In this document: positions 4,002 to 43,658 of the stretch, in pieces
Numbering within the stretch: the stretch's first letter is position 1
How the letters are laid out: every line of letters starts with the position of its first letter
Assembly: GCF_900102055.1 (NCBI RefSeq)
Contig: NZ_FNBA01000003.1
Span: forward strand, 124,001-188,000
DNA from: Ulvibacter litoralis
GTDB lineage: Bacteria; Bacteroidota; Bacteroidia; Flavobacteriales; Flavobacteriaceae
Length of the DNA: 64,000 bases
Direction of reading: 5' to 3'
Made by a program: the position numbers and the translations under genes
The notes under the pieces: generated by a model
The model's input: only the letters and a program-made list of their open reading frames with translations
The model's database searches: none
What the model was told of the DNA's origin: nothing

Positions 4002-4733
4002 TTATTTTGTAGCAGAATAGATGGTTGCTACACCAAACGTTTGTGGTTTATTTTCCACTTCTTTAAACCCGTTTTTTCTTAAAATATTGTTGAGTTTTTC
4101 TCCATGTGGAAAAATAGAGGCACTCTCACTTAAATAACGGTAGGCAACTTTGTCTTTTGAAAATATCTTTCCAATAAGGGGTAAAAATAATTTGGTGTAA
4201 AGTCCGTACCCTTGTTTAAAAGGAGTCTTGGTAGGAACCGAAGTTTCTAATATTACAAATATTCCGTTTGGTTTTAGTACTCTTTTTATTTCTGAAAGTC
4301 CTTTGTCTAGATTTTCAAAATTTCGAATACCGAAAGAAACGGTAATAGCATCAAAGGAGTTGTCTTCAAATGGTAGTGCTTCAGAATCTCCTTGAGTAAA
4401 TTCAATTTTTTCTGAAAGGGGTGTTCCTAACACTTTTTTTCTAGCCACTGATAACATTCCGTCAGAAAGATCTAATCCAACAATTTTTGAAGCATTGGTG
4501 TCAGTAGCAAATTTTATAGCAAGGTCTCCCGTGCCTGTAGCGATATCTAGTACAGATTCAGGATTTTTTTCGGCAACCATTTTTATCACCTTCTTGCGCC
4601 ACTTTACGTCGGTGCCAAGAGAGATAACACGGTTCAAGCCGTCGTAATTGCCCGATATAGTATCGAACATTTGCTCTACCTGCTTCTTTTTATTGAGCGA
4701 GGAGTCTTTGTAAGGGGTTACTTTTTTTTCCAT
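4002..4733 (-). CDS. ubiE: Demethylmenaquinone methyltransferase (MenG/UbiE)
   Basis: The 243-residue Rossmann-fold methyltransferase has the UbiE signature around residues 22-45 ([19 protein letters not shown]) and SAM motif [13 protein letters not shown] at 61-72, with the second family signature RVLKPNG further on. It makes the last step of menaquinone synthesis, methylating demethylmenaquinone. This fits an organism whose Nqr pump reduces menaquinone. It is the first gene of a probable two-gene unit with porT and has its own TAGCTTTG -7 element 13 bases before the ATG. Confidence 0.95.
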
Positions 4734-4746
4734 AAAATAGCGGATG

Positions 4747-4754
4747 CAAAGCTA
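4747..4754 (-). promoter_or_regulatory. -7 promoter element of ubiE-porT
   Basis: On the minus strand the sequence reads TAGCTTTG, a full match to the Bacteroidota -7 consensus TAnnTTTG, 13 bases before the ubiE ATG. No clear TTG -33 element is seen. The transcript would have a very short leader. Confidence 0.6.
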
Positions 4755-4823
4755 CATATTTTTTATTACTCGAAGGAACAATGATTTAAAATAGATAACA
4801 GGTAGGATGTCTATTAAATTATA

Positions 4824-4831
4824 TACCTTTG
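4824..4831 (+). promoter_or_regulatory. -7 promoter element of trkA-trkH
   Basis: TACCTTTG matches TAnnTTTG and lies 24 bases before the ATG at 4856. Transcription would start near 4838, which rules out the upstream in-frame TTG at 4829 as the translation start. No TTG -33 box is evident at the usual spacing. Confidence 0.6.
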
Positions 4832-4855
4832 CCCCACATTTTTCGTACAAATTTT

Positions 4856-12035: not shown

Positions 12036-13718
12036 TTAATTTTTAACAAATTTACTAGTCATAACAGCATCTCCATTTGTAATTTTTACAAAGTAAGTTC
12101 CTGTGATAAGTTGAGAAACTTCAACTTGTTCTTCCATAGAGATATTAGACTTAGTGTATAATACTTGTCCTAAAAGGTTGTAAACTTCAATAGAAGCATT
12201 TTCAGCATTTCTAATGTTTAATACAGTGCTAGCTGGATTAGGATAGATGCTTACGCTTTCAAATTCATTAGATCCAACACTTAATACACCATTTGTAGAA
12301 AAGTTTGTCGATTCACCTGAACCGTAGGTTCCACTTGTAACGTAAATAATTGTTCCGTCTGAATCTGTTAAGTTTACAGCACCACCACCATCACCATAAG
12401 TGTCTATTAAGTTAAACACATAGCAATCTTCTGGTAATGTAAAGTTTTCTGTAATTGTTAGGTTGTTTCCATAAGGTCCTCCACTATAGATAGTTGCGCC
12501 TGAAGCGTCCATTACATTCCATCGAACTTCACTTCCATATCCGTCTGTAGACAATGTCATTGTAACAGTTGAAGTAGATTCTAACGCTATATCAAAATCG
12601 TAAGAAGCATCGTTATTTGTATTGTTGTCGTCATTAGGAACAGTTACAACTACAGTATTTGTTGATTGTAGTGGGAATGTAACCTCGTTTAACTCAACTG
12701 TTTCACTTTGTAAAGACATTATGTTACCTGTCCAAGATAGTGTTTGAGAAGCACCACCGTTAACAGAATATTCAATATCTAATGATGTAATTGGGTCTTG
12801 TCCTAAATTTTGAATGTTAACACTTGGAGTAATAGTACCTGAACAGTTTTCAGCTATATCTTCAATGAATCTAACATTTACATCGTTAGCAGTCGTAATA
12901 CCACTATAAGTTGGATATGCGCCACTACCACTAGCTATATTTTGTTGTGTTTCTGTAATAAATGCAACTACTTCAAGATCGGCTAACTCAACAGGAACTC
13001 CATTGTAGTCAGATGGGATTGGATAAGTAAAAGTTTCATCAACAAAGGTACTTGCTGTTGTAGTCGCTATTTCTTGCCCCCATTGTCCTGTAATCATTTC
13101 TACAAGTCTATGCATGTGATTGTAGTCATTTCCTGCATTTCCTCCAGTTTGAGGCCCTTTTGTGTTGTTTTGAAGCAGTGCAACGTTTAATAAGTTTGTT
13201 CCTTCAGGGCTATTTCCTGTATAGTACCCTTCAACATGAATTGTAATTTCATTTGTTTGAACGTCAATATCCGCTTCAACACCAACATTTACATATGATG
13301 ATTCTGCTAATATTTGTCCTGCTGCAGTTCCCCATTGACCTCTACTCATTGCTGTAGTACCTGCTGCACCTTGTTCTAGTCCAGGGAAATTAAGACGGTT
13401 TACGGTTCCTGCGGGATATCCAATTAATCCTGTTTGGTTTACAATTGCTGTTCCGTATGGAGTTCTGAAGTCAGGTTCGCCACCACTTGGAGCAGCATAG
13501 CCACCTACGTGGATGTTTACTAAAAACACCTCTCCTGGATTGTTATCTTGAAGTGCTTGTGCTATGGCATGCCCCTCTGGACAATACACACAATGTATTC
13601 CGGTAAACTCTTCAAGGATTACTTTTTTGTTCTCTGGAGAAGTCGATACAATTGTTTGCGCAAAAAGGCTTCCTCCAAGAAGACCTAGCACAAAAAGTGG
13701 AGTTAATTTTTTCATCAT
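12036..13718 (-). CDS. Omp28-type thioredoxin-fold T9SS cargo protein, copy 1
   Basis: The 560-residue secreted protein has a signal peptide (cleavage after FA, residue 20), an Omp28-type thioredoxin-like domain with the site CVYC (Cys43, Cys46) in KKVILEEFTGIHCVYCPEGH, an immunoglobulin-like middle section and a C-terminal T9SS type A sorting domain (SVYPNPASTVLNI to the end). It should be exported by T9SS to the cell surface. It is a close tandem paralogue of the gene at 13916, with about 240 highly similar N-terminal residues. The middle region (about 270-470) has diverged more. Biochemical function is unknown; the CxxC suggests thiol-disulfide chemistry or metal binding. Confidence 0.85.
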   Translation of the reverse strand: MMKKLTPLFVLGLLGGSLFAQTIVSTSPENKKVILEEFTGIHCVYCPEGHAIAQALQDNNPGEVFLVNIHVGGYAAPSGGEPDFRTPYGTAIVNQTGLIGYPAGTVNRLNFPGLEQGAAGTTAMSRGQWGTAAGQILAESSYVNVGVEADIDVQTNEITIHVEGYYTGNSPEGTNLLNVALLQNNTKGPQTGGNAGNDYNHMHRLVEMITGQWGQEIATTTASTFVDETFTYPIPSDYNGVPVELADLEVVAFITETQQNIASGSGAYPTYSGITTANDVNVRFIEDIAENCSGTITPSVNIQNLGQDPITSLDIEYSVNGGASQTLSWTGNIMSLQSETVELNEVTFPLQSTNTVVVTVPNDDNNTNNDASYDFDIALESTSTVTMTLSTDGYGSEVRWNVMDASGATIYSGGPYGNNLTITENFTLPEDCYVFNLIDTYGDGGGAVNLTDSDGTIIYVTSGTYGSGESTNFSTNGVLSVGSNEFESVSIYPNPASTVLNIRNAENASIEVYNLLGQVLYTKSNISMEEQVEVSQLITGTYFVKITNGDAVMTSKFVKN

Positions 13719-13758
13719 TTCTTGTTGATTTTTTGTTGGTAAATGGTTTGGTTTAAAA

Positions 13759-13766
13759 CAAATATA
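13759..13766 (-). promoter_or_regulatory. -7 promoter element of Omp28-type copy 1
   Basis: The minus strand reads TATATTTG, a consensus match 40 bases before the ATG. The surrounding block, an A-rich run followed by the element, is also present before copy 2 at 15645, so the promoter was duplicated with the gene. Confidence 0.6.
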
Positions 13767-13844
13767 AGTTTTTTTTTGAATAAAGTTACAGGGTGGTAAA
13801 CAAAATTAAAACGATTGTAAAACCCTAGTAATCCTATAGATATA

Positions 13845-13899
13845 AAAAAAATGACCCCAAAAACACAAGCTGTAACTCATGTTTTTTGGGGTCATTTTT
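13845..13899 (-). terminator. Terminator of Omp28-type copy 2
   Basis: A long stem centred on GACCCC (13853-13858) and GGGGTC (13888-13893), extended by A/T pairs, ends on the minus strand in a run of eight T. It lies 17 bases after the stop of the gene at 13916 and separates the two paralogues, so each has its own transcript. Confidence 0.85.
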
Positions 13900-13915
13900 A
13901 ATAGGTTGTAATTTA

Positions 13916-15604
13916 TTATTTTGACACAATAAATTTACTTGTTTTAACTTCGTTTCCGTCAGTTATTTTTACAAAATAAGTACCCGTGTTGTAGTTTGAA
14001 ACTTGTACTTGTTCGTTTAATGAGATGTTCGTTTTAGAATAAAGCTCTTGACCTAACATGTTGTAAATATTTATTGATGCATTTTCAGCATTTTGAATAT
14101 TTAAGATTGTACTAGCAGGGTTAGGGTAGATGGCAACATTTTGCAATGCATTATCAGATACTCCAAGTGCTCCAGAGTTACCAAAGTTTCCGATAATTTG
14201 CGCTCCAAAAGATCCGTCGGTTTCAAAGAAAGTTATTCCTGTTTCGTCAGTAAATGTAGCTGTAGTTCCACCATTACCAGAAGAATCTAATAATGTAAAT
14301 ACATAATAACAGTTTTCTCCAAGGTTGAAAGTTCTTTGAATAGTTTCGTTATTGTCATATGGTCCACCACCAGAAATTGGGCTTCCAGAAGCCGTTTTTA
14401 ATGTCCAAGTACATTCACTTCCAAAGTCGTCTGTGTTAATAACTAAAGTTACTGCACCTGCGCTTCCTCCAATACTTTCAAATTCTTCTTGTCCAGAGTT
14501 GTTTGTGTTGTCATCATCATTAGGCATTGAGATATACACAGTGTCTGTTGCTTCTGAAATGTATGAGATACCGTCTAATTGAAATGTTTCACTATGTAAA
14601 GAAGGTAAGTTTCCTGTCCAAGTGTATATTTCTGTTGGTCCAGAGTTTACTGAGTATTCAATGTCTATAGAAGTTAATGTGTCTGCTCCTAAATTTTGAA
14701 TAGTAATAGTTGGTTCAACGACATCGAAACAGTTGAAGTTAATTTCTTCAATAGCAGTTAAGCTTGCATCGTTAGCAGTCGTGATTCCAGAATAAGTTGG
14801 GTAAGCTCCACTACCACTTGCTATAGTTTGGTGTGTTTCAGTAATAAAAGCAACAACTTCTAAGTCTACGATATCAACAGGGATTCCATTGTAATCTGCA
14901 GGAATTGGATATGTGTAAGTTTCGTCAACAAAAGTACCTGTTGTAGTGGTAGGGATTTCAATTCCCCATTGTCCTGTTACCATTTCAACAAGTCTGTGCA
15001 TGTGTACGTAGTTGTTACCAGCGTTACCACCTGTTTGAGGTCCTTCTGTATTATTTTGAAGTAAAGCAACATTTAGTAAGTTTGTTCCTTCTGGGCTGTT
15101 TCCAGTATAATAACCTTCTACGTGAACAGTTAATTCGTTAGTTGTGATATCAATATTAGCTTCAACTCCTACATTTACATAAGATGATTCTGCTAAAACT
15201 TGATTGGCAGCTTGTGTCCATTGACCTCTACTCATTGCAGTTGTTCCTGCAGCACCTTGCTCTAAGCCAGGGAAGTTAAGTCTGTTTACAGAACCAGCAG
15301 GGTATCCAACTAGTCCAGTTTGATTCACAATAGCTGTTCCGTAAGGTGTTCTAAAATCAGGGTCGCTTCCAGTTGGTGCTGCATAGCCTCCTACGTGCAC
15401 ATTTATTAAATATACTTCGTTTGGATTCGCGTCCTGTATCGCTTGTGCGATGGCATGTCCTTGAGGGCAATATACACAGTAAATCCCTGTGAATTCTTCA
15501 AGTATTACTTTCTTGTTTTCAGGTGATGTCGATACAATTGTTTGTCCGTAGGAAACAAATGAAAGTACAGAAAAAGCTAAAAACGTTGTTAATTTTTTAA
15601 TCAT
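13916..15604 (-). CDS. Omp28-type thioredoxin-fold T9SS cargo protein, copy 2
   Basis: The 562-residue protein has the same plan as its neighbour: signal peptide ending near residue 20, Omp28-type domain with CVYC at Cys43 and Cys46, Ig-like middle part, and a T9SS type A sorting tail (AIYPNPASTILNI onward). The two copies keep long identical stretches in the first 270 residues, while residues about 280-470 differ clearly. This suggests a conserved redox or binding head and a faster-evolving middle. It has its own promoter and terminator. Function unknown beyond surface export. Confidence 0.85.
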   Translation of the reverse strand: MIKKLTTFLAFSVLSFVSYGQTIVSTSPENKKVILEEFTGIYCVYCPQGHAIAQAIQDANPNEVYLINVHVGGYAAPTGSDPDFRTPYGTAIVNQTGLVGYPAGSVNRLNFPGLEQGAAGTTAMSRGQWTQAANQVLAESSYVNVGVEANIDITTNELTVHVEGYYTGNSPEGTNLLNVALLQNNTEGPQTGGNAGNNYVHMHRLVEMVTGQWGIEIPTTTTGTFVDETYTYPIPADYNGIPVDIVDLEVVAFITETHQTIASGSGAYPTYSGITTANDASLTAIEEINFNCFDVVEPTITIQNLGADTLTSIDIEYSVNSGPTEIYTWTGNLPSLHSETFQLDGISYISEATDTVYISMPNDDDNTNNSGQEEFESIGGSAGAVTLVINTDDFGSECTWTLKTASGSPISGGGPYDNNETIQRTFNLGENCYYVFTLLDSSGNGGTTATFTDETGITFFETDGSFGAQIIGNFGNSGALGVSDNALQNVAIYPNPASTILNIQNAENASINIYNMLGQELYSKTNISLNEQVQVSNYNTGTYFVKITDGNEVKTSKFIVSK

Positions 15605-30836: not shown

Positions 30837-32144
30837 ATGTTTTTAGCAGTAAGCACAATAGGAGTTATCGTTGCAACTGTCGTAGCCTTTTTGGTGTTGA
30901 CCTTGCTTTTGGTAGCATTATTACTTTTTACCAAACAAAAATTATCTCCTTCAGGACCGGTAAAAATTACCATTAATGATGAGAAGGTAATCGAAGTAGC
31001 TTCCGGTGGAACATTACTTTCTACCTTAGGAGCAGAGAAAATTTTCTTACCATCAGCTTGTGGTGGTGGTGGAACTTGTATTCAATGTGAATGTCACGTA
31101 CTTTCGGGTGGTGGTGAAGCATTGCCTACAGAGACGCCTCACTTCAGTAGAAAAGAATTAAAAGAAGGGGCTCGTCTTTCTTGTCAAGTAAAAGTAAAAC
31201 AGGATATGAACATTCATATTCCTGAAGAAGTCTTCGGAATTAAAAAATGGGATGCAACAGTAGTGCGTAACTATAACGTAGCTTCATTTATTAAAGAATT
31301 TGTAGTAGAAATTCCTGAAGATATGAACTACAAAGCAGGTGGGTATATTCAAATTGAAATTCCTGAATGTGAAGTAAGATTCGAGAATATGGATATTACG
31401 GCACACCCTGAAGAACACGAACGACCAGACAAATTTCAAGACGAATGGGACAAATTTAAACTTTGGCCTTTAGTTATGAAAAACACTGAAACAGTAGAGC
31501 GTGCTTATTCAATGGCCTCGTATCCAGCTGAAGGACGTGAAATTATGTTGAATGTTCGTATTGCAACACCTCCATTTGACCGCGCCAAAGGTGGCTGGAT
31601 GGATGTAAATCCAGGGATTGCATCTTCCTATATTTTTGATCGTAAACCAGGAGATAAAGTGGTAATTTCAGGACCTTACGGTGAATTCTTTATCAATCCA
31701 TCTGAAGCAGAAATGCTATATGTAGGTGGAGGGGCTGGAATGGCGCCAATGCGTTCTCACTTATATCACTTATTCAAAACCTTAAAAACAGGACGTACTG
31801 TTACATATTGGTATGGTGGACGTTCTAAAAGAGAGTTGTTCTATTTAGATCACTTTCAACAATTAGAAAAAGAGTTTCCAAACTTTAAGTTTTACTTAGC
31901 ATTGTCTGAACCTATGGAAGAAGACAATTGGAAAGTGAAAAAAGATATTCATAGTGAAGGTGATGGTTTTGTTGGGTTTATTCACCAAGTGGTAATCGAC
32001 AACTATTTAAATTTACATGAATCTCCAGAAGATATTGAATTGTATTTCTGTGGTCCTCCATTAATGAACCAAGCAGTACAAAAAATGGGAGAAGATTTTG
32101 GAATTCCAGACGAGAACATTCGTTTTGACGATTTCGGAGGATAA
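30837..32144 (+). CDS. nqrF: Na+-translocating NADH:quinone reductase subunit F
   Basis: The 435-residue subunit has an N-terminal membrane helix (about 5-31), a ferredoxin domain binding [2Fe-2S] through Cys75, Cys81, Cys84 and Cys116, an FAD domain with RAYSMASYP, and an NADH domain with [14 protein letters not shown] and the C-terminal YFCGPPLM. It takes electrons from NADH in the cytoplasm. It is the last nqr gene and is followed by a terminator, although the functionally linked apbE lies 10.5 kb away. Confidence 0.97.
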
Positions 32145-32171
32145 ACTAAACTCCATTCATATAATAAGAAG

Positions 32172-32206
32172 CCCGTTTCATTTTTTGAAATGGGTTTTTT
32201 CTTTTT
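32172..32206 (+). terminator. Terminator of the nqr operon
   Basis: The stem CCCGTTTCA/TGAAATGGG (one G-U pair) with a five-T loop is followed by six T and further T-rich sequence, 27 bases after the nqrF stop. Confidence 0.85.
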
Positions 32207-32280
32207 TAAAAGTCTTTGGTTTGGTTTTATTTCTTCTTTGTATTAAAATATCTGTTCTACACGTTGCTAATTTCTAATTA

Positions 32281-32309
32281 AAATGAGTAGCTATTACAAC
32301 TACTCATTT
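32281..32309. promoter_or_regulatory. Perfect 10-bp inverted repeat upstream of the first giant gene
   Basis: AAATGAGTAG (32281-32290) and CTACTCATTT (32300-32309) are exact inverse complements with nine bases between. A further CTACTCA at 32311-32317 repeats the right half-site 11 bases on, and CACTCA follows at 32323. The cluster lies about 45 bases upstream of the -33 box of the gene at 32433. Confidence 0.55.
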
Positions 32310-32353
32310 ACTACTCAAATTCACTCAAAGCGCTAACTTTCTCTGTGAGAGGG

Positions 32354-32382
32354 TTGTTTTTGCAGATTAAAAGTTAATTTTG
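32354..32382 (+). promoter_or_regulatory. Promoter of the first giant T9SS gene
   Basis: A TTG at 32354-32356, an 18-base spacer and TAATTTTG at 32375-32382 together match both halves of the Bacteroidota promoter consensus, 50 bases before the ATG. It is the most complete promoter match in the window. Confidence 0.65.
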
Positions 32383-32432
32383 ACCTAGTTTTAATTTAAC
32401 CTAAGAACTATTCACAAATTAAATGATGCGCA

Positions 32433-35400
32433 ATGAATCTTAAATTTACCCCTTCAAAAAGACCAATATCATATTTGGTTTACATTTCGATTTTTTCAGC
32501 AGTATTACTTTCGCTCTTATTCTTTTTCAATAAGAATAATTCAGAAACAGCAGAACAAGTTTCAGAAACTAAAGAAATTTCAGAACGATATTCAGACTAT
32601 TTACAACATCATCCTTATGTAGCTAGAATGAAAATGAACAAAACGGAACGACGTGCAAATGGACTTCCTCCAAATAAATTTTACGAACAAGAATATTTAC
32701 TAACAAGTGACCCTGCACTTTTAAGACCTACTCCAGAAAAAGTTTTTGAGCTTCAAGAGGTATTAAAGAATAATCCTCAAATGAGAGCGCCTGGGGCAGG
32801 AATAAATAATTGGGAAGAAAGAGGTCCAAACAATGTAGGAGGACGTACACGTGCCTTAATATTTGCTCCTGGAAGCACCACAAAGGTAATTGCTGGTGGT
32901 GTGAGTGGAGGTCTTTGGATTAATGAAGATATTACCAATGCATATTCAGATTGGCAACAAGTTACAGGTGTGCCTGCTAATATGGCGGTTTCAGCTATTA
33001 CAGTAGATCCACAAAATACGAACATTATGTACATAGGTACTGGTGAAGTATATACTGCAGGTAATGTAAATGGAAATGGAGTCTATAAATCTACAGATGG
33101 AGGGTATAATTGGACACATATATATGGTCAAAATACGGGACCAGTTGAAGATCGTGTTACCTATATTCAAGACATCATTGCTTGGGTAAACCCAGTAACT
33201 AGTTCTACCGAGATATTATTTGGAGCAGATGCTAGTTTTTATAAAGAACAATTAGGAAACGATGTTTTCTTAGGATCAAATACAATTGGAATCTATAAAT
33301 CTACCGATGGTACTAACTTTAGCAGATTAACAGGGGCGACTTTTGAAAGTTCTCCTGGTACTTATTATGCGCCTAACACATTTGATGTAAATTCAAATGG
33401 TACAAAAGTGTGGATGGGAACTAAACAAGGTGGTTCTACATACGAAGGTGGAGGTGTTGTTTTTTCTTATGATGGAACAAATTGGACGAACGTAGTAAAT
33501 TTAAACACGGATGGTCGTGTAGAGATTGTTTGCTCTAAACAAAATCCAAATAAAATTTACATGCTTTGTGAAGACCAAGTAAGTGCAACACAAAAGGTGC
33601 AAATTTTTAGAACTACAGATGCATTTGCAACAGCTCCTACAGCAATGCCATTGCCAGTAGATATTGAGCCAGGTTTACCTGCAAACGATTTTACAAGAGG
33701 ACAAAGTTTTTATGATTTACAAATTGGAGTAGACCCTAATAATGATGCCACTTTATTTGTGGGAGGTATTGATATTTTTAAATCTACAAACTCTGGAGCT
33801 GCTTGGACTCAAAAAGTACATTGGTACGGATTAAATGATTTACCTAATGTGCATTCAGATCATCATAGTATTGCTTTTAGCGGTTCAAATAGAATTGTAT
33901 TTGGAAACGATGGAGGTATTTATTTTTCAGACGATGGAGGAGATACCTATGGTGTGCGTAATAAAGGGTATAACGTAACTCAATATTACAAAGCGGATAT
34001 CAATCAGGATGTTTCAAAATTAAAATTAATAGCAGGAGCACAGGATAACGGTGTTAACTTTATTGATAATGCTCAATCTGGAATTAATTCATCAGTAACA
34101 ATCTCTGGCGGAGATGGAGGGTGGAGCTTTATCGATAAAGATTCACAGTATATTATTACGTCTTATACCAATACTCAATATTATGTACACGATATTAATG
34201 GTGTAAAGAAAAATGATTTTGAAGGAAATTCAGGTGCTGAAGGAAGTTTTATCAACGAATGTGGATTGGATAGTGATACTAACTATTTTTATGCAAATTC
34301 AAGTACCGCTGCTCCTTTCGGAATTCATAGATGGAAGATAGACCCAGTAGCTTTTACAGCAACCTCAAAAACATTATTAACAAATGGGTTGATTACAGGA
34401 CAACCTTCATTTTTTGTTGCTTCTCCTTTTACAAGTGATAGAATGTTTATAGGAACGGCTATGGGGGATATTATCAGATTAGATAATGCAAGTACTGCAT
34501 CACCTACATGGACTAGTAAGTCTATTTCTGGAATGGTAGGTGCTGTTTCTGATATTCGTTACGGTCAGACAGAAAATGATATCATGGTTACGTTCCATAA
34601 CTATGGAGTTGTAAGCATTTGGGCAACGACAGATGGAGGTGATAACTGGGTGAATAAAGAAGGTGATTTGCCTAATATGCCCGTAAAAACAATTCTTCAA
34701 AATCCATTGCGTTTGGACGAAGTAATTATCGGAACTGAACTAGGAGTATGGTCAACATCAAACTGGAGTAGTAGCTCACCAAACTGGGTGCAATCTCAAA
34801 ATGGAATGAGTAACGTAAAAGTGATGAACTTCGAAATGAGAGCTGCAGATTATACAATTGTTGCTTCCACTCACGGTAGAGGAATGTTTACAGGAGTTTT
34901 TGAACCTGAGCATACATTTTGTGCTTCTAATGGGACAACAGCTTCTCATATCGGACTTACAAACGTTACGCTGCACACGATTAATAATTCTGATATCACG
35001 AAAAATAGTGGGTATGAAGATTTTTCATCAATCATTACAGAAGTTAGACAAGGAAGTAGTTATGATCTTTCTGTAAAATTAAATTCAGATGGTGCAAATA
35101 CTGTGCATGTAAAAGCTTGGATTGACTGGAATAACAACAGTGATTTTACCGATCCAGGAGAAGAGTATGACCTTGGGACAGCGACAAATGTAGCCAACGG
35201 AACTACTACATTATCTCCTCTTTCAATTCCTGTTTCTGCAACGGCTTCCTTCGGAATAAAAAGAATGAGAGTTTCAGCCAAACAAGGAAGTGCTGCTACC
35301 TCTTGTGAAACTAACTTTGATGGTGAAGTAGAAGATTATTCTATTCGAGTGATTTCTCCAATTATATATTGCCCAGCTGGAGGAACAGATAACGGAGGCG

Positions 35401-37487
35401 ATCATATTGCCAATGTAACATTAGGTACAATAAACAATACCTCTAGTGATGATGCAGGTGGGTATGGTGATTACACAACTGTAACTCCAACTACGTTAAC
35501 CAGCGGAAGTTCACAAACTCTTTCAATTACCAAAGGTGGTGGTTCAGACGATGGTGTAGGGGCTTGGATAGATTATAACGGAGATGGTGATTTTAACGAT
35601 GCGAATGAAGCGATCGGATTTAGTGCACATTCTTCTACTCCTACCATAACAATTCCTTTTACAGTACCTGCTAATATAACAAGTATTAATACAAGGATGC
35701 GTATTGCAGTACAATACCAAAATTCAGCTCCATTGCCATGTGGTTCTGATCTTTATAGAGAAGTTGAAGATTACACGGTTACTTTAGTAGCTGGTGCTTC
35801 ACCTTGTACAGGAATTACTAAAACATGGAACGGATTATGGGCTCCTGCTGGAGCGCCAAACCCAACAGATACAGTGATTATTTCATCAAATTATGATGCT
35901 GGACTTAATGGAAACATAGAAGCTTGTTCACTTACTATTACTTCGGGGGCAACTGTAACGGTAGCTTCAGGAAAATTTATACGAGTACAAGGAGACATTA
36001 CAGTTAATGCGGGTACAAGTTTATTAGTGCAACATGAAGGAAGTTTGGTTCAAGTAAACGATGCAGCTTCGGTGACAAATAATGGAACAATTAGCATTCA
36101 AAAAACAACACCAACACTTGCTGAGAAAAAGTTCATGATCATGGGAAGTCCTATGACTGCAGAAACTAGAGAAGATGTGTACAATGCAGCGTATATAGTG
36201 AGACATCACAACACCGCTAACTTTGTTCCAAATCCTGATGTTACTGCCGCTTTTCCGGCTGCTGAAAACTTTGCAGACGATAACGGTAATAACTGGTTAA
36301 CGCATACAGGAACTATAAACCCAGCTGAAGGATATATGGTATTTCCACAACCAAATACTACAGGAAGTGGAAGTTATACACATAATTATACTTTAGGAAC
36401 CTTAAATACAGGAACAATTACAGCGCCATTAGCGTATCATACCGATCAGAATTCAAGTCCGAATATGTTAGCAAATCCATACGCTTCAGCAATAGACGCG
36501 AATGCATTTTATGCAAATCCAGCCAATGCAGCAATCAATGTGTTGTATTTCTGGGAACATATTACGCCACTTTCTGTAAGTTATCCTGGTTACAATGCAG
36601 CCAACTTTAGCATGGGAGATATTTCATTATACAGTAAAGCAATGGGAGGTGTTCAAGCTGGAAACGGAGGAACAACACCAACGGGTATTATAGCATCTGG
36701 ACAAGGATTTGCAGTAAAAGCAGCTTCGGCAGGAATTACGGCAACATTTAACAATGCAATGCGCGTTACTGGACCAAATGATACGTATAGAAGACCTCTT
36801 ACTTCGGAAAGAGATCGTTTGTGGATTAATGTGTACAACGACAGTTATGGCTTAGGAAGTACTACTTTAATTGGTTTTTCTGAAAACACAACAAATGCTT
36901 TTGAAGCTGACGCAGATATCAAGCGTTTGGCAACACCGGTATCATTGTATTCTGAATTAGGAACAGGAGAAGAACTTGCTATTAATGCGTTAGGTTCTTT
37001 TGAAATTGAAGCTTCAGTAGGATTGAGTTTCTCCACACAAGTAAAGGAGTCTCAAAACTACCGTATTTCACTTCAAGATTTAGATGGAATTAACATAGAC
37101 ACGGCGACTGTTTTCTTAATCGATAATTTACTAGGCACTGTGACCAACTTAAGTGAAGGCGATTACAGCTTCCAAAGTGAAGAAGGGACTTATAGCGAGC
37201 GTTTCAAAGTAGTATTTGAAAATAGCGTTTTAGGGACAAACGATGTAGCTTTACATTCAATTTCAGTATATCCAAATCCAGTTCAAAATGTAGTGAACAT
37301 TGTGTCACCAAAAGCGAAAGTTACTTCAGCTACGGTGCATGATATTCGAGGCAGAAAAGTTTCCGAAGTAAATTTCAGAAATCGAACTAACTACCAAATA
37401 GACCTATCTAAATTAGAGTCTGCTGTTTATTTCGTAACAATAGTTACCGAAAGCGGAACACTTACAAAACGTGTTATCAAGCAATAA
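32433..37487 (+). CDS. Giant beta-propeller surface protein with two GEVED domains and T9SS tail
   Basis: The 1684-residue protein has a hydrophobic N-terminal signal/anchor (about 15-34), a sortilin/BNR-like propeller region (about 110-820) with repeats such as VYKSTDGGYNW, IFKSTNSGAAW and ATTDGGDNW, two GEVED domains (about 825-970 and 978-1119) each with an acidic DWNNNSDF or DYNGDGDF loop that could bind calcium, a beta-solenoid-like region (1130-1195), a 400-residue module shared with the next gene, and a T9SS type A sorting domain (1607-1684). It should be secreted or surface-bound; adhesion or glycan binding is an inference. It is inserted between nqrF and the apbE genes. Confidence 0.85.
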   Translation: MNLKFTPSKRPISYLVYISIFSAVLLSLLFFFNKNNSETAEQVSETKEISERYSDYLQHHPYVARMKMNKTERRANGLPPNKFYEQEYLLTSDPALLRPTPEKVFELQEVLKNNPQMRAPGAGINNWEERGPNNVGGRTRALIFAPGSTTKVIAGGVSGGLWINEDITNAYSDWQQVTGVPANMAVSAITVDPQNTNIMYIGTGEVYTAGNVNGNGVYKSTDGGYNWTHIYGQNTGPVEDRVTYIQDIIAWVNPVTSSTEILFGADASFYKEQLGNDVFLGSNTIGIYKSTDGTNFSRLTGATFESSPGTYYAPNTFDVNSNGTKVWMGTKQGGSTYEGGGVVFSYDGTNWTNVVNLNTDGRVEIVCSKQNPNKIYMLCEDQVSATQKVQIFRTTDAFATAPTAMPLPVDIEPGLPANDFTRGQSFYDLQIGVDPNNDATLFVGGIDIFKSTNSGAAWTQKVHWYGLNDLPNVHSDHHSIAFSGSNRIVFGNDGGIYFSDDGGDTYGVRNKGYNVTQYYKADINQDVSKLKLIAGAQDNGVNFIDNAQSGINSSVTISGGDGGWSFIDKDSQYIITSYTNTQYYVHDINGVKKNDFEGNSGAEGSFINECGLDSDTNYFYANSSTAAPFGIHRWKIDPVAFTATSKTLLTNGLITGQPSFFVASPFTSDRMFIGTAMGDIIRLDNASTASPTWTSKSISGMVGAVSDIRYGQTENDIMVTFHNYGVVSIWATTDGGDNWVNKEGDLPNMPVKTILQNPLRLDEVIIGTELGVWSTSNWSSSSPNWVQSQNGMSNVKVMNFEMRAADYTIVASTHGRGMFTGVFEPEHTFCASNGTTASHIGLTNVTLHTINNSDITKNSGYEDFSSIITEVRQGSSYDLSVKLNSDGANTVHVKAWIDWNNNSDFTDPGEEYDLGTATNVANGTTTLSPLSIPVSATASFGIKRMRVSAKQGSAATSCETNFDGEVEDYSIRVISPIIYCPAGGTDNGGDHIANVTLGTINNTSSDDAGGYGDYTTVTPTTLTSGSSQTLSITKGGGSDDGVGAWIDYNGDGDFNDANEAIGFSAHSSTPTITIPFTVPANITSINTRMRIAVQYQNSAPLPCGSDLYREVEDYTVTLVAGASPCTGITKTWNGLWAPAGAPNPTDTVIISSNYDAGLNGNIEACSLTITSGATVTVASGKFIRVQGDITVNAGTSLLVQHEGSLVQVNDAASVTNNGTISIQKTTPTLAEKKFMIMGSPMTAETREDVYNAAYIVRHHNTANFVPNPDVTAAFPAAENFADDNGNNWLTHTGTINPAEGYMVFPQPNTTGSGSYTHNYTLGTLNTGTITAPLAYHTDQNSSPNMLANPYASAIDANAFYANPANAAINVLYFWEHITPLSVSYPGYNAANFSMGDISLYSKAMGGVQAGNGGTTPTGIIASGQGFAVKAASAGITATFNNAMRVTGPNDTYRRPLTSERDRLWINVYNDSYGLGSTTLIGFSENTTNAFEADADIKRLATPVSLYSELGTGEELAINALGSFEIEASVGLSFSTQVKESQNYRISLQDLDGINIDTATVFLIDNLLGTVTNLSEGDYSFQSEEGTYSERFKVVFENSVLGTNDVALHSISVYPNPVQNVVNIVSPKAKVTSATVHDIRGRKVSEVNFRNRTNYQIDLSKLESAVYFVTIVTESGTLTKRVIKQ
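36016..37221 (+). repeat. Shared C-terminal module, copy A
   Basis: This stretch codes for about 400 residues that match 40734-41935 almost residue for residue, with long identical blocks around PTLAEKKFMIMGSPMTAETR and HTDQNSSPNMLANPYASAID. It precedes the T9SS sorting domain in both giant genes. The DNA is also highly similar, so the copies are recent or kept alike by gene conversion. Confidence 0.85.
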
Positions 37488-37501
37488 ATAGCTAAAAATT
37501 G

Positions 37502-37534
37502 AAAGGCCGTTTAAAACACTAAACGGCCTTTTAT
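37502..37534 (+). terminator. Terminator of the first giant gene
   Basis: A perfect 11-bp stem (37502-37512 with 37521-37531) and an eight-base loop ending in a T-rich run, 15 bases after the stop. Confidence 0.88.
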
Positions 37535-37690
37535 TCTTAAAAATTACAGTGATATTATTCTTTCAACAATGCCTTTTTTAATCTAAAGGGTGCTATCGCT
37601 GTGTCTTTACCTCAATGAATGAGAAGCTCCTGAACAGATAGTTTGCATTTGGAGCCTAACGATTAATACAAGTTTATAAACAAACCTAAA

Positions 37691-40600
37691 ATGAGAAAAA
37701 TATTATTTTTTGTATGTAGCATTGCTCTATTTGCAGTATGTACTACATCGTGTAAAGAAGACAAAGTTGTTCATGAAAAAGCCGAACGACCACTTCTGCA
37801 TTTAGAACAAGCTAAAATCGACCGAAGAAATAATGGAGAGGTGAATCCCGATAAAACAGCACCTTGGACTCCAGAACAGGCGGCTCGACACCAGTTAATT
37901 TTAGCCAAGCTTGTGGAGACTTCAGAAAACTTTTCGAATGGTCGATCTAATACAGCGACCTATGCAGATGGAGCTCTTGCAGGGAAGTGGGTGAATAGAG
38001 GGCCTAAAAATATGCCAGGTGCTTTTAAATTTGCCGAAATGTTAGATGGCACTGATATCATCTACGGTGTAACTCATAATCACTATGTAGGGGAATACAA
38101 TTCTACCTCTCATATTTACAAAGGTACCGTGTACAATCCTACCACAGGTGTTGGAGGGGACGACTTTCAAGTACTTACAGCAAACTGGCCAAACAGATAC
38201 GATAACCTCTTTGCTTTTACGCTTAATGCAGGTGTACGATTGGTTGCTCATATTGAAAGTGGACCAATCTATTATTCAGATGACGAAGGAAGTACTTGGA
38301 CGGTTGCTACAGGCTTGCCAGCGGCTTTGACTAGCGCTGCAATTAACAGGCAGGACAATAATGCTATTTATGTAACAGACGATACTTCAGTGTATGTTTC
38401 AACAGATCAAGGGGTGAGTTTTACTTTGTTTCAGAATTTTGGAAGTTCTGCTCATTCTTCTTTATACACACCTAGGTATGCAATTCAGCCAAACGCAAGT
38501 ACAATGTATTTAGCACGAAATGGATCTTTTTACTCCCTTACGACTGCTCAATCTCAGTTTGTTTTAAAAGGAAGTTATACAACATCACACAATAATGGGA
38601 AATTCAGTGTAGCGGGAGATTCTAGAAAACTATACGTGACAGTAGATAATAACTATTGGGTTTCGGTAGATGAAGGTGTCACTTGGACTCAGAAAACCCC
38701 TCATGGAAATTATTACGGAGATACATCAGGAACCATGGATGCTGGAAAATTTTTAGCAGTGAGCCCAGTAGACGAAGATATTGTGATTGCAGGATATGCC
38801 CATCCAGTAGTTTCGACAACAGGGTTGAATACCGTATATACCGATCATGCAGGTTGGGGGAATTACCAAAATGGTACAGAATTACCACAACAAGATTATT
38901 ACAATCGCATCCGATTTAACTATCACCCAGATTTTCAAGCTTCACACTTTTTCTACAATAGCAGTGGTACTTTATTATCGGTACGCTGTACAGATGGAGG
39001 GATATATGTTTCTTATAAAGAATGGTTTGATTTCCCAGCAGCAGGTGCAGGATATAATAATTCTGGATATGCCAATGCGCATTTTATTAATGTTACTTTA
39101 TTAAATACAATTACGCCTTTAGTATATAGAAATGACCTGTTTACAGGTAAAAATGATCCAAATCATATCAATTCTGGAACTCAAGATCAAGGATCGCAAA
39201 GCATTATTCCTGGAACAACGGGCGATGTTTTAGACTTTTATCAGTCGATTGGGGGTGACGGACAAAGTATCGATAGTCAGGATGGAGAAAATGCATGGAG
39301 ATGGAGTCGTAAAGGAGATATGGCATGGTCGCCTGTAAAAGTATATACTGCAGGTGGTGGATTTAGATCAATAGGAGAAATTAATGGTGATTTCAATAGT
39401 AGCGCATCGGTAAATTTTAGTCAAAACACAGCCTTAGGTTGGGTTCAGACGTATATAGATCATAAAGATCCTGATAAAAATATATGGTTATTAGCTAAAG
39501 ATTTAAATCGTGCAAAATGGGATGGAACTAACTTTACAGCGCATACTGTAAGTAAAGGAACAAATCAAGTTTCGGCACTAGCACAAGGAACTGTAAATGG
39601 AGACAAACTTTTTATGTTACAAGACGGAAAAGTGTTTGCTTCTAGTGATAGAGGAGATACATTTGATGCAGGAACAACCACTCCTTTTAGTAAAACGACA
39701 GCAGATCAAAACATAGGAAGCGGTGTTGTACTTCCGGGCAATGACAATTGGATTTTATTTTCTGGGCCTAGTGAAAATAATGTAGGTTCAATCTTATCTA
39801 AAGATGGAGGACTGACTTGGAATGATGTTACTGGAATTTTCCCGGCAGGGAATGATGCGCAAACGGGAGGGATGATTGTTACTCCTGATGCTAAATATGT
39901 GTTCGCAGGAACAGATATTGGTCCGTATGTGTTTGACGTTTCAAAAGAAAAATGGTTCTCTATAGCTGAAGGTATCGGATTTATTAACATTACCGATGTA
40001 GATTATATCGCATCTATTAATACTGTCCGATTTGCAAGTTGGGGATCTGGTGTGATTGATTTTAATATTGAAGAAATTGTTGGCGGTTGTACAGATACTC
40101 CAATTGCACAAAATACGTATACATTGTATTCTGTCGATAGTCAGCAAGGAAGTGACCCTGGTGCGAATGCCTTCGACGGAGATATAAATACTATCTGGCA
40201 CACACAATATTCTCCTACAACAGATAGCTATCCGCATAGTATTGTTATTGATTTAGGAAGTTCAAAAAATGTTTCGAATATCAAATGCATGCCTAGACAA
40301 TCAAGTCCCAATGGACGAATTGCTAATTATGAAATATACGTAAACGACGATCCTCTTAACTTTGGAGCTGCAGTAGCTTCAGGCACTTGGACAAATACTA
40401 CAGACGAGAAAACGGTAAGTTTCACTCCTAAAGAAGGTAGATATGTTCAACTAAAAGCACTATCTGAAGTAAATGGAAATGCATGGGCTTCGATGGCAGA
40501 AATTAATATTTCAGAATGTGTTGGCGAATGTTCTGGAGGAACAACCACATACATTAGTGGTGCATGGAGCCATGGAGCGCCCGATGCAACAAAAACTGTA

Positions 40601-42199
40601 ATTATTGCTGAGAATTATAGCACTGCATTGGGAGATATCAATGCCTGTGAGCTTCAAGTAGATCCTATGGCTACCTTAACAATAACAGATGGTAAATTTG
40701 TGAAAGTTGAAAAAGACATCGCAGTAAAAGGAAACTTACTTATTCAACATCAAGGTAGTTTGGTGCAGGTAGACGATACTGCATTGGTTACTAAGGACGG
40801 AACAATTACTATTGAAAAAACAACACCAACCCTTGCAGAGAAAAAGTTTATGATCATGGGAAGCCCTATGACTGCGGAAACAAGGGAAGGGGTGTACAGT
40901 GCTTCGTACATAGTGAGACATCACAATACAACGAACTTTGTTCCGAATCCTGCTGTTGCTTCGGCTTTTCCATCTGCTGAAAATTTTGCAGATGATAACG
41001 GTAATAACTGGTTAATACATACAGGCATTGTAACTCCTGCGGAAGGTTATATGGTGTTTCCACAACCGAACTCAACAGGAAGCGGAAGTTTTACACACTC
41101 GTATACGCAAGGAACCTTAAATAATGGAGTTGTCATTGTTCCATTAAAATATCATACCGATCAGAATTCAAGTCCGAACATGTTGGCAAATCCATACGCT
41201 TCTGCAATCGATGCGAATGCGTTTTATGCAAATCCAGCAAATGCGGCAATCGATGTATTGTATTTCTGGGAACACATCACCCCACTTTCAGTGAGTTATC
41301 CAGGTTATAATGCCGCCAACTTCAGCATGGGAGATATCTCTATGTATAGTGAGGCTATGGGAGGAATTCCAGCCGGAAACGGAGGAACTGCACCAACAGG
41401 AATTATTTCTTCTGGACAAGGATTTGCAGTGAAAGCAGCTTCCGCAGGAATTAATGCAACGTTTAACAATGCAATGCGTGTAACAGGACCAAATGATACG
41501 TATAGAAGACCTGCTTCGGAAAGAGATCGTTTGTGGATTAATGTATACAACGACACCTACGGACTAGGAAGTACCACCTTAATTGGTTTTTCTGAAACGA
41601 CAACCGATACTTTTGAAGCAAACGCTGACATCAAACGTTTGGCGACACCAGTTTCGTTGTATTCTGAATTAGCAACTGGAGAAGAACTTGCTATTAATGC
41701 GCTTGGTTCTTTCGAAATTGAAGATGCTGTAGCGCTTAGTTTTTCTACGCAAGTAAAGGAATCTCAAAACTACCGTATTTCACTTCAAGATGTAGAGGGT
41801 GTAAATATAGAATCGGCAACGGTTTTATTAATCGATAATTTACTAGGAACTGTCACCAACTTAAATGAAGGAGATTACAGTTTCCAAAGTGAAGAAGGAA
41901 CTTATAGCGAGCGTTTCAAAGTAGTATTCGAAAATCGAATATTAGCAACAAACAATCTTGCGTTGAATTCAGTTTCAGTATATCCAAACCCTGCTAAAAA
42001 CAACTTGTACATTGTTTCATCAGAAGCATTAATTATAAATGCAGTGGTGTACGATTTACAAGGAAGACAAGTGCAATATGCTAAAAGTTCAAACATGACA
42101 AACATTCAAATAGATCTTTCTTCATTAAATAGTGCCGTGTATTTTGTAAAAATTACAACAAACGCTGGTGTAATTACCAGACGAGTGATGAAAGATTAA
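37691..42199 (+). CDS. Giant beta-propeller surface protein with discoidin domain and T9SS tail
   Basis: The 1502-residue protein has an N-terminal signal with a cysteine (Cys21, AVCTTSC) resembling a lipobox, a BNR/sortilin-like propeller (about 85-795, for example YYSDDEGSTWTVAT and VSVDEGVTWTQKT), an F5/8 type C (discoidin) domain (about 799-942) with NAFDGDINTIWHT and the closing strand MAEINISEC, a beta-solenoid-like piece (about 955-1012), the shared 400-residue module (1015-1413) and a T9SS type A sorting domain (1423-1502). The discoidin domain suggests sugar binding. Export by T9SS is well supported; the substrate is not known. Confidence 0.85.
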   Translation: MRKILFFVCSIALFAVCTTSCKEDKVVHEKAERPLLHLEQAKIDRRNNGEVNPDKTAPWTPEQAARHQLILAKLVETSENFSNGRSNTATYADGALAGKWVNRGPKNMPGAFKFAEMLDGTDIIYGVTHNHYVGEYNSTSHIYKGTVYNPTTGVGGDDFQVLTANWPNRYDNLFAFTLNAGVRLVAHIESGPIYYSDDEGSTWTVATGLPAALTSAAINRQDNNAIYVTDDTSVYVSTDQGVSFTLFQNFGSSAHSSLYTPRYAIQPNASTMYLARNGSFYSLTTAQSQFVLKGSYTTSHNNGKFSVAGDSRKLYVTVDNNYWVSVDEGVTWTQKTPHGNYYGDTSGTMDAGKFLAVSPVDEDIVIAGYAHPVVSTTGLNTVYTDHAGWGNYQNGTELPQQDYYNRIRFNYHPDFQASHFFYNSSGTLLSVRCTDGGIYVSYKEWFDFPAAGAGYNNSGYANAHFINVTLLNTITPLVYRNDLFTGKNDPNHINSGTQDQGSQSIIPGTTGDVLDFYQSIGGDGQSIDSQDGENAWRWSRKGDMAWSPVKVYTAGGGFRSIGEINGDFNSSASVNFSQNTALGWVQTYIDHKDPDKNIWLLAKDLNRAKWDGTNFTAHTVSKGTNQVSALAQGTVNGDKLFMLQDGKVFASSDRGDTFDAGTTTPFSKTTADQNIGSGVVLPGNDNWILFSGPSENNVGSILSKDGGLTWNDVTGIFPAGNDAQTGGMIVTPDAKYVFAGTDIGPYVFDVSKEKWFSIAEGIGFINITDVDYIASINTVRFASWGSGVIDFNIEEIVGGCTDTPIAQNTYTLYSVDSQQGSDPGANAFDGDINTIWHTQYSPTTDSYPHSIVIDLGSSKNVSNIKCMPRQSSPNGRIANYEIYVNDDPLNFGAAVASGTWTNTTDEKTVSFTPKEGRYVQLKALSEVNGNAWASMAEINISECVGECSGGTTTYISGAWSHGAPDATKTVIIAENYSTALGDINACELQVDPMATLTITDGKFVKVEKDIAVKGNLLIQHQGSLVQVDDTALVTKDGTITIEKTTPTLAEKKFMIMGSPMTAETREGVYSASYIVRHHNTTNFVPNPAVASAFPSAENFADDNGNNWLIHTGIVTPAEGYMVFPQPNSTGSGSFTHSYTQGTLNNGVVIVPLKYHTDQNSSPNMLANPYASAIDANAFYANPANAAIDVLYFWEHITPLSVSYPGYNAANFSMGDISMYSEAMGGIPAGNGGTAPTGIISSGQGFAVKAASAGINATFNNAMRVTGPNDTYRRPASERDRLWINVYNDTYGLGSTTLIGFSETTTDTFEANADIKRLATPVSLYSELATGEELAINALGSFEIEDAVALSFSTQVKESQNYRISLQDVEGVNIESATVLLIDNLLGTVTNLNEGDYSFQSEEGTYSERFKVVFENRILATNNLALNSVSVYPNPAKNNLYIVSSEALIINAVVYDLQGRQVQYAKSSNMTNIQIDLSSLNSAVYFVKITTNAGVITRRVMKD
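40734..41935 (+). repeat. Shared C-terminal module, copy B
   Basis: This is the second copy of the module at 36016-37221. It has one codon fewer (RRPASER against RRPLTSER) and otherwise differs by scattered substitutions. The flanking propeller regions are much less alike. Confidence 0.85.
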
Positions 42200-42220
42200 A
42201 TAGCCCCCTTTTAATCAATA

Positions 42221-42256
42221 AAACCGCATTTAAGTAAAATTGAATGCGGTTTTTTT
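42221..42256 (+). terminator. Terminator of the second giant gene
   Basis: CCGCATT and AATGCGG form the stem core, extended by AAA/TTT, and are followed by seven T. It lies 22 bases after the stop and ends 39 bases before the next start codon. Confidence 0.85.
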
Positions 42257-42278
42257 ATGTGCCAAATTCAATCTCATG

Positions 42279-42286
42279 TATCTTTG
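42279..42286 (+). promoter_or_regulatory. -7 promoter element of the small gene-apbE unit
   Basis: TATCTTTG matches the -7 consensus and lies eight bases before the ATG at 42295, so the mRNA would have almost no leader. It shows that this pair is transcribed apart from both nqr and the giant genes. Confidence 0.55.
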
Positions 42287-42294
42287 CAATTCGT

Positions 42295-42657
42295 ATGAAT
42301 GAAGAACTTACAAAACAAGAGCTACACAATCTGGCAATGAATATTGTTGGAAAAGACCTCGAGGCACAAGGATATGAGTTTTTAGGAGTAAATTCTAAAC
42401 TCAAAAGAGATCCGCAATTTGTGGCCTTAAAAAATAAAAACCTTCACTTTGTCATAGTAAGAGCAGTAGCCTATCCAGACGATGCCAATGCATATGATCC
42501 TGTTTTTATGCAAACCATTAAAACACATGCCGAAAAGTTTGAAGCTAAAACTTTTTATGCAGGCGTTGGTTTAGGAAGTGGTACAGATTATGCAAAACCT
42601 GTTATTAAAAATGAAGATTATACCATGGTGTATAATGGTTTACAAGAAATTTTATGA
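42295..42657 (+). CDS. Small conserved protein linked to nqr-apbE (often mislabelled NqrF)
   Basis: The 120-residue protein (MNEELTKQELHNLAMNIVGKDLEAQG) is a single compact alpha/beta domain without signal peptide, membrane helix, cysteine cluster or flavin motif. An upstream start at 42244 is in frame but falls within the terminator and before the promoter, so the ATG at 42295 is used. I know close relatives from Flavobacteria where they lie between nqrF and apbE and are sometimes named as an NqrF subunit; nothing in the sequence supports that name. It overlaps apbE by four bases (ATGA). A role in Nqr assembly is plausible only from context. Confidence 0.8.
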   Translation: MNEELTKQELHNLAMNIVGKDLEAQGYEFLGVNSKLKRDPQFVALKNKNLHFVIVRAVAYPDDANAYDPVFMQTIKTHAEKFEAKTFYAGVGLGSGTDYAKPVIKNEDYTMVYNGLQEIL

Positions 42658-43658
42658 GAGCACTTAGTTTTTTAGCAATACTACTAGCATTTTTTTCCTG
42701 TACAGAAGAGAATCCCCAAGCAAAACTTTTGCAAGGAAATGCATTTGGAACAACGTACTCCATACAGTTCTATGCTTCGGAAAATTTTAATGCTGAAAGA
42801 GGCATCGATTCTGTAATTCACGCAGTAAACAAATCGGTAAGTACGTACATACCTAATAGTGATATTTCAAAAATTAATAATGGCGATACTTCAGTTGTAG
42901 TAGATGAAATTTTTAAAGAAGTTTTTGCGATTTCTGAAGAAGTACATAAAAATTCTCACGGCTATTTTGACCCTACAATAGGCGTGCTTCGGAATGCCTA
43001 TGGCTTTGGAGATGTAAAACCCTTAGAAACAATCGATGCACATGTGTTAGACTCTTTAATGGACTATGTTGGGTTTTCAAAAGTGTCTATTTCAGAAGAT
43101 GGGAAGGTCGTAAAATTACATCCGCAAGTGTATTTCGATTTTAACGCCGTGGCTAAGGGCTACGGAATCGATTGTATTGGGCGCTACTTAGAAACACAAG
43201 GTGTCACGAACTACTTAATCGAATTGGGAGGAGAAATACTTTCTAAAGGAGAAAATACAGCAAAACAAAAACCTTGGGTAGTCGGTATCGAAGCTGTAGA
43301 TTCAAATCTTGAAAATAGAAGCTACCAAGCAACCATTACGATTCAGAATAAAGGAATGGCTTCCTCTGGGAATTACCGAAAGTTCCGAGTAGATTCTCTA
43401 ACAGGAAAAAAATACGTACATACTTTAAATCCGCTTACAGGTTCTGCAGAGCAAAGTGATGTAACAAGTGCTACGGTAATTGCAAAAACATGTGGTGAGG
43501 CCGACGCATATGCGACTACTTTAATGGCACTCGGACTCGAAAAATCTGTGGCGATGCTGAAAGATTTACCCCAAGTTGACGCGTATATCACCTATAATGA
43601 CGGTTCGAATAAAGAACAGGTGTTTATGACGGAAGGGTTTAAGAGGTTAATGAACTAA
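42654..43658 (+). CDS. apbE: FAD:protein FMN transferase ApbE
   Basis: The 334-residue lipoprotein (signal with FFSC, Cys16) has the ApbE fold with AFGTTYSIQFY, SDISKIN, DFNAVAKGYGID near 160-172, ELGGEI and the C-terminal ADAYATTLMALG motif that binds the metal. It moves FMN from FAD to threonines of NqrB and NqrC in the periplasm. It is co-transcribed with the small gene before it. Its last 12 bases overlap the opposing methyltransferase gene. Confidence 0.95.
   Translation: MRALSFLAILLAFFSCTEENPQAKLLQGNAFGTTYSIQFYASENFNAERGIDSVIHAVNKSVSTYIPNSDISKINNGDTSVVVDEIFKEVFAISEEVHKNSHGYFDPTIGVLRNAYGFGDVKPLETIDAHVLDSLMDYVGFSKVSISEDGKVVKLHPQVYFDFNAVAKGYGIDCIGRYLETQGVTNYLIELGGEILSKGENTAKQKPWVVGIEAVDSNLENRSYQATITIQNKGMASSGNYRKFRVDSLTGKKYVHTLNPLTGSAEQSDVTSATVIAKTCGEADAYATTLMALGLEKSVAMLKDLPQVDAYITYNDGSNKEQVFMTEGFKRLMN

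Follow-up and report, generated by a model that had tools for sequence, protein, structure and literature searches.

Head and module core of a group of secreted surface proteins in Ulvibacter litoralis and its relatives have, as judged from sequence comparisons, different histories, and concerted evolution of the module, which lies between the heads and their sorting tails, is well supported. This kind of evolution is a known one, and it acts here on a domain family for which no model was found. The window analyzed here (the whole stretch of 64,000 nucleotides, from a U. litoralis assembly with 56 contigs and 3.82 Mb; this genome is hereafter referred to as G000) contains two copies of the module, which were compared with further copies in the same genome, in the genus-mate Ulvibacter antarcticus DSM 23424 (G001) and in other relatives.

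Two neighboring proteins share a module in front of the sorting tail

Open reading frames and Pfam and NCBIfam matches define two large proteins on the + strand. P0001 (window positions 32433..37487; 1684 aa) consists of a propeller-like region, two GEVED stretches (the better one at 35556..35783; Pfam PF20009, E = 2.4e-35), the module and a type A T9SS sorting tail (37233..37484; TIGR04183, E = 5.5e-13), while P0002 (37691..42199; 1502 aa) consists of a propeller-like region, an F5/8 type C (discoidin) domain (40139..40504; Pfam PF00754, E = 4.6e-21), the module and the same type of tail (41945..42196; E = 6.9e-16). With 48.7 and 58.0 bits, respectively, both tails pass the curated TIGR04183 cut-off of 23. 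The whole module, delimited by BLASTP and sequence comparisons, has approx. 470 aa (P0001 aa 1128-1600, 35814..37232; P0002 aa 951-1418, 40541..41944), with a core of approx. 390 aa.

The sequence-only reading, which covered positions 36016-41935, i.e., from the first module copy to the second, had described the module as nearly identical in both proteins, also at the DNA level. The reading frames are real, and BLASTN found a single long match with 84% identity over 1258 bp (36021..37276, extending approx. 14 codons into the tail, and 40736..41988), all remaining matches being no longer than 23 nt; the similarity is thus not confined to the protein level. BLASTP aligned P0001 1125-1683 with P0002 947-1501, i.e., module and tail, with 421 of 560 columns identical (75%). 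By part, identity was 45% (30/66) in the first 70 aa of the module, 86% (344/402) in the core and 50-59% in the tail. Identical blocks are indeed common to both proteins: TPTLAEKKFMIMGSPM is present in P0001 and in P0002, and a degenerate DNA pattern encoding the beginning of this block has exactly two matches genome-wide, one in each of these genes.

That the upstream domains differ is clearly true for the two GEVED stretches as compared to the F5/8 type C domain, but does not extend to the start of the proteins, as both appear from their sequences to begin with a BNR/Vps10-like propeller region. Direct BLASTP similarity between these regions is barely detectable (E = 0.025), and the Pfam scan of P0001 itself gave no propeller match; the two regions are linked through G001 proteins that have Sortilin-Vps10/BNR matches, with approx. 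20-25% identity. The N-termini of both proteins are hydrophobic, as assessed by eye. P0002 starts (37691-37760) with a hydrophobic stretch that, also by eye, closes in a lipobox-like Cys; such a start is also found in its G001 orthologue and in one module protein of another genome (G015), and these starts could possibly be lipoprotein signals on T9SS-tailed proteins.

The two genes are adjacent and lie between nqrF (30837-32144; TIGR01941, E = 1.1e-169) and an apbE-like gene (42654-43658; E = 1.8e-45, yet under the cut-off of the model). This interval (30837-43658) contains two module-bearing surface genes in G000 and six in G001, and in G015 a module-bearing gene likewise follows nqrF; it looks like a hot spot for genes of this kind.

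The module belongs to a family that includes parts of RemA and RemZ

Scans of P0001 and P0002 against Pfam and NCBIfam gave no family over its cut-off within the module, and 38 modules gave only scattered weak matches to these collections (best E = 4.8e-5 and 0.0037). Two Pfam candidates for the P0001 module were rejected, as Hyphal_reg_CWP reached 22.0 bits against a gathering cut-off of 28 and G8 reached 14.6 against 22.9 bits. A profile of the 38 modules, used with hmmsearch against PDB entities, matched Flavobacterium johnsoniae RemZ (Fjoh_0803; residues 575-1029, profile 3-469, E = 3.3e-97) and RemA (Fjoh_0808; residues 902-1351, profile 5-469, E = 6.4e-90); P0001 alone matched the same proteins over module and tail (E = 5.5e-44 and 3.9e-37, respectively). 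In RemA, RemZ and both window proteins the matched region lies directly before the type A CTD, and these matches show homology between the module and the part of RemA and RemZ that precedes the tail. The description of the module as unnamed therefore holds with regard to Pfam and NCBIfam models, but not with regard to its relatives, which are found in named proteins.

According to the portion of the RemA/RemZ structure paper that was available (PMC10994853), the CTD alone is well resolved and the passenger domains have no ordered density, so that the structure of the module would not have been solved there. An AlphaFold2 model of module and tail, based on 78 aligned sequences, had a pLDDT of 93.0, and four parts can be read from its strands: a short start that resembles a solenoid, a central domain, a domain with the look of a beta-sandwich, and the tail. 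The modelled tail matches the RemA CTD (8gl6_D; Z = 11.6, rmsd 1.6, 75 aligned), and the tail dominated the results when the 563-aa model was searched against the PDB. The central 237 aa (36087..36797 in P0001) were also modelled and searched alone; the fold predicted for this domain is confident (pLDDT 93.8, pTM 0.91), but it has no convincing PDB match (Foldseek best E = 0.2; VIA best Z = 2.9, no row reaching 5), a lack of matches that does not prove the fold to be new.

Module copies in the genome and in the family

The module is not restricted to the two window proteins named in the sequence-only reading. G000 contains 12 full copies, eight with 63-100% and four with 46-48% identity to the P0001 module. 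A profile search confirmed these 12 copies and added one distant protein at C42:858.8-860.3 kb; this protein (L044, G000:C42:858675-860585; 637 aa) has a type A tail and a weak two-piece match to the profile, and is possibly a distant relative of the module proteins. A domain scan of the heads covered the eight close copies, i.e., P0001, P0002 and six others, and these six carry DUF1028 plus MAM, M4 peptidase, M36 peptidase, M43 peptidase, fn3 plus GEVED, and one head without Pfam match. Among the 12 copies, two lie at base 1 of contigs C46 and C24 (L049 and L050) with their heads cut off, and in G015 contig C18 ends and contig C23 begins inside a module (L060 and L061); perhaps near-identical module stretches broke or collapsed the two assemblies at these contig ends. 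Only the first approx. 90 nt of C46 and C24 are identical.

Type A tails number 87 in G000, 12 of them preceded by a full module and 75 by none, so type A secretion does not generally depend on the module. G001 has nine module matches. Among 299 sampled genomes of Flavobacteriaceae, 169 had a module match at E 1e-20; as at most five candidates were scored per genome, copy numbers from this survey are lower bounds. Loci in relatives were obtained by scanning contigs with an alignment as query, which succeeded where a single-protein query found nothing; the best 80 of 428 relatives yielded 78 loci, all with titles naming Flavobacteriaceae or Flavobacteriales except one that reads merely 'Bacteroidia'. 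GldD and SprA are present in 290 and 294 of the 299 sampled genomes, respectively, and co-occurrence of the module with gliding or T9SS genes thus does not discriminate. Of the 87 proteins retrieved with a near-complete module, 86 have 81-94 aa after it and one, which stops at the end of its locus, has 42 aa; many carriers exceed 1000 aa. The match in a further genome (L058, G003:C5, approx. 4183-5560) comes in two pieces in different open frames and may represent a broken gene.

Heads follow orthologues and cores mostly follow genomes

The heads of P0002 and of the syntenic G001 protein G001_C4_190k, which likewise lies between nqrF and an apbE-like gene, have 63% identity across 947 aligned positions. 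The cores of these two proteins share only 47% identity, as compared to 85% between the cores of P0002 and P0001. In 30-aa windows along the last 250 aa of the P0002 head, identity to the orthologue is 40-83%; the paralogue overtakes the orthologue 50-80 aa into the module, leads there by 22-60 points, and in the tail its lead narrows to 5-17 points. A similar picture was found for two M36 peptidases (881k in G000 and 215k in G001), which are 53% identical in the head (the last approx. 200 aa of which are poorly conserved, with 13-46% per window) and 47% in the core, while the 881k core is 85% identical to a paralogue. A control pair (C38_631k/C1_141k) behaves in the opposite way, with 47% identity in the head and 84% in the core, so a core can stay well conserved across the species split. 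In Aequorivita pairs such as G030/L077, where G030 has a single copy, head identity was 86% and core identity 79%; the core is thus not slower than the head in all cases, and a core identity below that of the head proves nothing by itself.

Among 104 proteins from 62 genomes, 35 could be compared with regard to both head and core. In 27 of these, a paralogue from the same genome with an unrelated head had a core closer than that of the best head orthologue, and in 25 closer than that of any head orthologue; as loci were incompletely sampled per genome and are related, the 27 cases are not independent events. Both proteins of the control pair are among the other eight. For between-genome pairs with a head match of at least 250 aa (n = 284), core identity was below head identity in 124 and not below it in 160; where heads were at least 40% identical (n = 187), it was below in 121.

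Module trees were calculated with 79 and 34 rows, the smaller set being also used for AU tests; incomplete modules (G003 and, at contig ends, both G015 copies) were left out of trees and counts, as were L070, L097 and L074, which duplicate G001 and G030. AU tests rejected a core clade for five of six head-orthologous pairs, i.e., P0002/190k (p = 1.8e-4), 881k/215k (p = 7e-122), G001_210k/Patiriisocius marinistellae L109 (p = 8e-74; heads 79%, cores 44% identical), 61k/81k (p = 6e-6) and 870k/Cochleicola L066 (p = 2e-39), while the sixth, the control pair, forms a clade with 100/100 support. The pairs were chosen for the similarity of their heads but with the module tree already known, so these p values do not come from a blind test. 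In the trees, the eight main G000 cores group in one clade, beside Cochleicola and MAGs (UBA3356) and, in the 79-row tree, also Zunongwangia ESRF-bin46. The eight G001 cores fall in another clade together with L100 and L104, which are from other species. It therefore does not look as if the two sets arose by mere drift from one homogenized set; a different type dominates in each species, and each dominant type may have been either imported or sorted from older types.

Likeness within a genome is concentrated in the core. Across the 28 pairs of the eight main G000 copies, median identity was 35% in the first 70 aa, 81% in the core and 56% in the tail, and for the eight G001 copies it was 41.5, 72 and 39%, respectively. 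Among columns fixed in at least seven of the eight copies of each species, 74 differ between the two sets and 135 are common to both.

Conversion tracts and silent divergence

The neighbors 876k and 870k in G000 share a tract of 1223 nt with 99.4% identity. Upstream of it about half of the preceding 240 nt differ, and downstream the copies diverge again before 51 identical nt at the very end, so that one edge of the tract lies in the module and the other in the tail (P = 0.0005 by permutation; 0.014 with Bonferroni correction). Both copies are on one contig; a repeat of this kind in a short-read assembly calls for a check with long reads. After correction, no other G000 pair stood out in this test, and in G001 a single run of 43 nt was found, between 210k and 81k (Bonferroni-corrected P = 0.042). 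For P0001 and P0002 themselves no conversion tract was detected (permutation P = 0.31). The modules of this pair differ at far more silent than replacement sites (pN 0.11, pS 0.49), a pattern by which the module is shown to be under purifying selection, and the lack of a tract together with this pS value indicates that homogenization of the pair is old.

As a baseline, eight pairs of neighboring genes had pS values of 0.66-0.81 between the two species (one pair, with only 38% protein identity, may not be orthologous). In G000, pS was 0.13-0.63 for the 21 pairs without 886k and 0.67-0.70 for the seven pairs with it. Values below the baseline suggest that homogenization in G000 probably continued after the species split, although the highest are barely below. 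Silent sites of the G001 copies are near saturation (pS 0.60-0.78), and homogenization in that genome can thus not be dated.

Possible explanations for the likeness of the cores

We propose that in one class of surface proteins with type A T9SS tails, RemA and RemZ included, the module forms the pre-tail part, and that its core of approx. 390 aa would be homogenized within a genome by gene conversion, including replacement of whole cores, while the heads would be inherited vertically and diverge independently. After secretion the core would serve a single purpose irrespective of the head, most likely to dock the protein to the cell surface or to present it there, and in RemA it may be coupled to surface movement. 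If copies within a cell have to match one another or a common partner, this would explain why one version is found across many genes and differs between species. We consider this combination of intragenomic recombination, vertical heads and a head-independent core probable, if far from certain. That the module spread as a cassette by duplication or gene conversion, as the sequence-only reading had supposed, is supported, and head orthologues, the grouping of most cores by genome and the one tract with edges favor conversion or replacement in situ.

The main competing explanation, which we take to be a serious possibility while doubting it, is that the core is a constrained stalk with no specific partner, where conservation favors recombination and homogenization is a neutral by-product. 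It would agree with the weaker homogenization of the first 70 aa and the tail in G000, and structural or functional constraint has also been invoked for the 3' segments of the Helicobacter pylori hom and bab genes, in the part of the report available (PMC2795765); the 74 columns fixed differently in the two species could speak against it but are not decisive, as neutral homogenization could produce the same. The module might instead help large heads through the SprA translocon, as a spacer or intramolecular chaperone, since it adjoins the CTD in nearly all fetched proteins and many of these are very long. This seems unlikely to us given the 75 type A tails without module and given that, according to the accessible part of PMC12618676, the CTD of RemA is by itself sufficient for the export of sfGFP and, placed behind SprB in a fusion, for the secretion of SprB.

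There are two further explanations. One module gene could have multiplied after the species split, with heads later moved onto the copies; the single clade of the main G000 cores and the different numbers of such genes in the nqrF/apbE-like interval of the two species are compatible with such a course, but the 876k/870k tract has its edges within the module and the tail, and P0002 retains both its syntenic place and an orthologous head, so that its core must have changed in situ. We regard this explanation as improbable, more so than a role in transport. Convergent or parallel selection on the proteins, with no exchange of DNA, we hold to be very improbable overall: the near-saturated silent sites of G001 and the seven 886k pairs of G000, which are not below the baseline, would be in line with it, but the other 21 G000 pairs lie below the baseline, if only slightly at their upper end, and for most G000 copies such selection appears unlikely from silent divergence.

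Function and comparison with known systems

Under the explanation that we prefer, i.e., homogenized cores with a head-independent job, a surface docking role of the module is plausible, and it would fit the place of the module beside the tail and the very different heads, peptidases included. As reported in the available portion of PMC12618676, among cells with signal for RemA-HaloTag with the RemA CTD (n = 86), foci were static in 55% and mobile in 86%, while foci of SprB-HaloTag with the same CTD were immobile; mobility of RemA thus needs its passenger, which includes the module and the lectin domain. This result could also stem from the lectin head. A bolder version of the docking idea, in which the core acts as a docking standard particular to each species and, when this standard changes, recombination rewrites it in most of the genes but not in their heads, so that the same heads sit on incompatible plugs, and in which the central domain is a new fold, we regard as possible but still more doubtful than the stalk.

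RemA, a gliding adhesin with a lectin domain as its head (same portion of PMC12618676), shares with the proteins described here the region directly before the CTD, but module copies here are also found on peptidase heads. The Pfam scan of P0001 and P0002 gave no family named lectin; P0002 has the F5/8 type C domain. By their tails both window proteins qualify as type A substrates, of which a minority in G000 has the full module. The closest parallel is with H. pylori babA/babB and homA/homB, where, in the sections available of PMC3960876 and PMC2795765, the 5' parts (in bab also the middle) follow the gene between strains and the 3' parts are alike within a strain; here, too, paralogues exceed orthologues in identity in one segment only. 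Those, however, are pairs of related outer-membrane proteins in one species, whereas the module is found in many proteins with largely unrelated heads and another secretion system, and different module clades dominate two species of one genus. Titles and abstract openings of the open-licence papers retrieved by searches contained nothing recognizable on conversion or concerted evolution in T9SS proteins.

A domain present in more than half of the family genomes sampled and in a well-studied gliding adhesin thus matched no Pfam or NCBIfam model in its two window copies, and no resolved structure of it was found. That cores evolve in concert although their heads are unrelated speaks for a common, head-independent function, and suggests a common plug with different working heads, of which each species has its own version. 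It also offers a way to examine what holds adhesins of type A, RemA among them, on the cell surface and what moves them there, and calling orthologues by the C-terminal half of proteins with this module can mislead.

Other observations in the window

The 64-kb window had no tRNA and no Rfam match at gathering score. At 12036-15604 it encodes two neighboring proteins that are 65% identical over 558 columns, both with a CVYCP motif and type A tails, i.e., another duplicated secreted pair.
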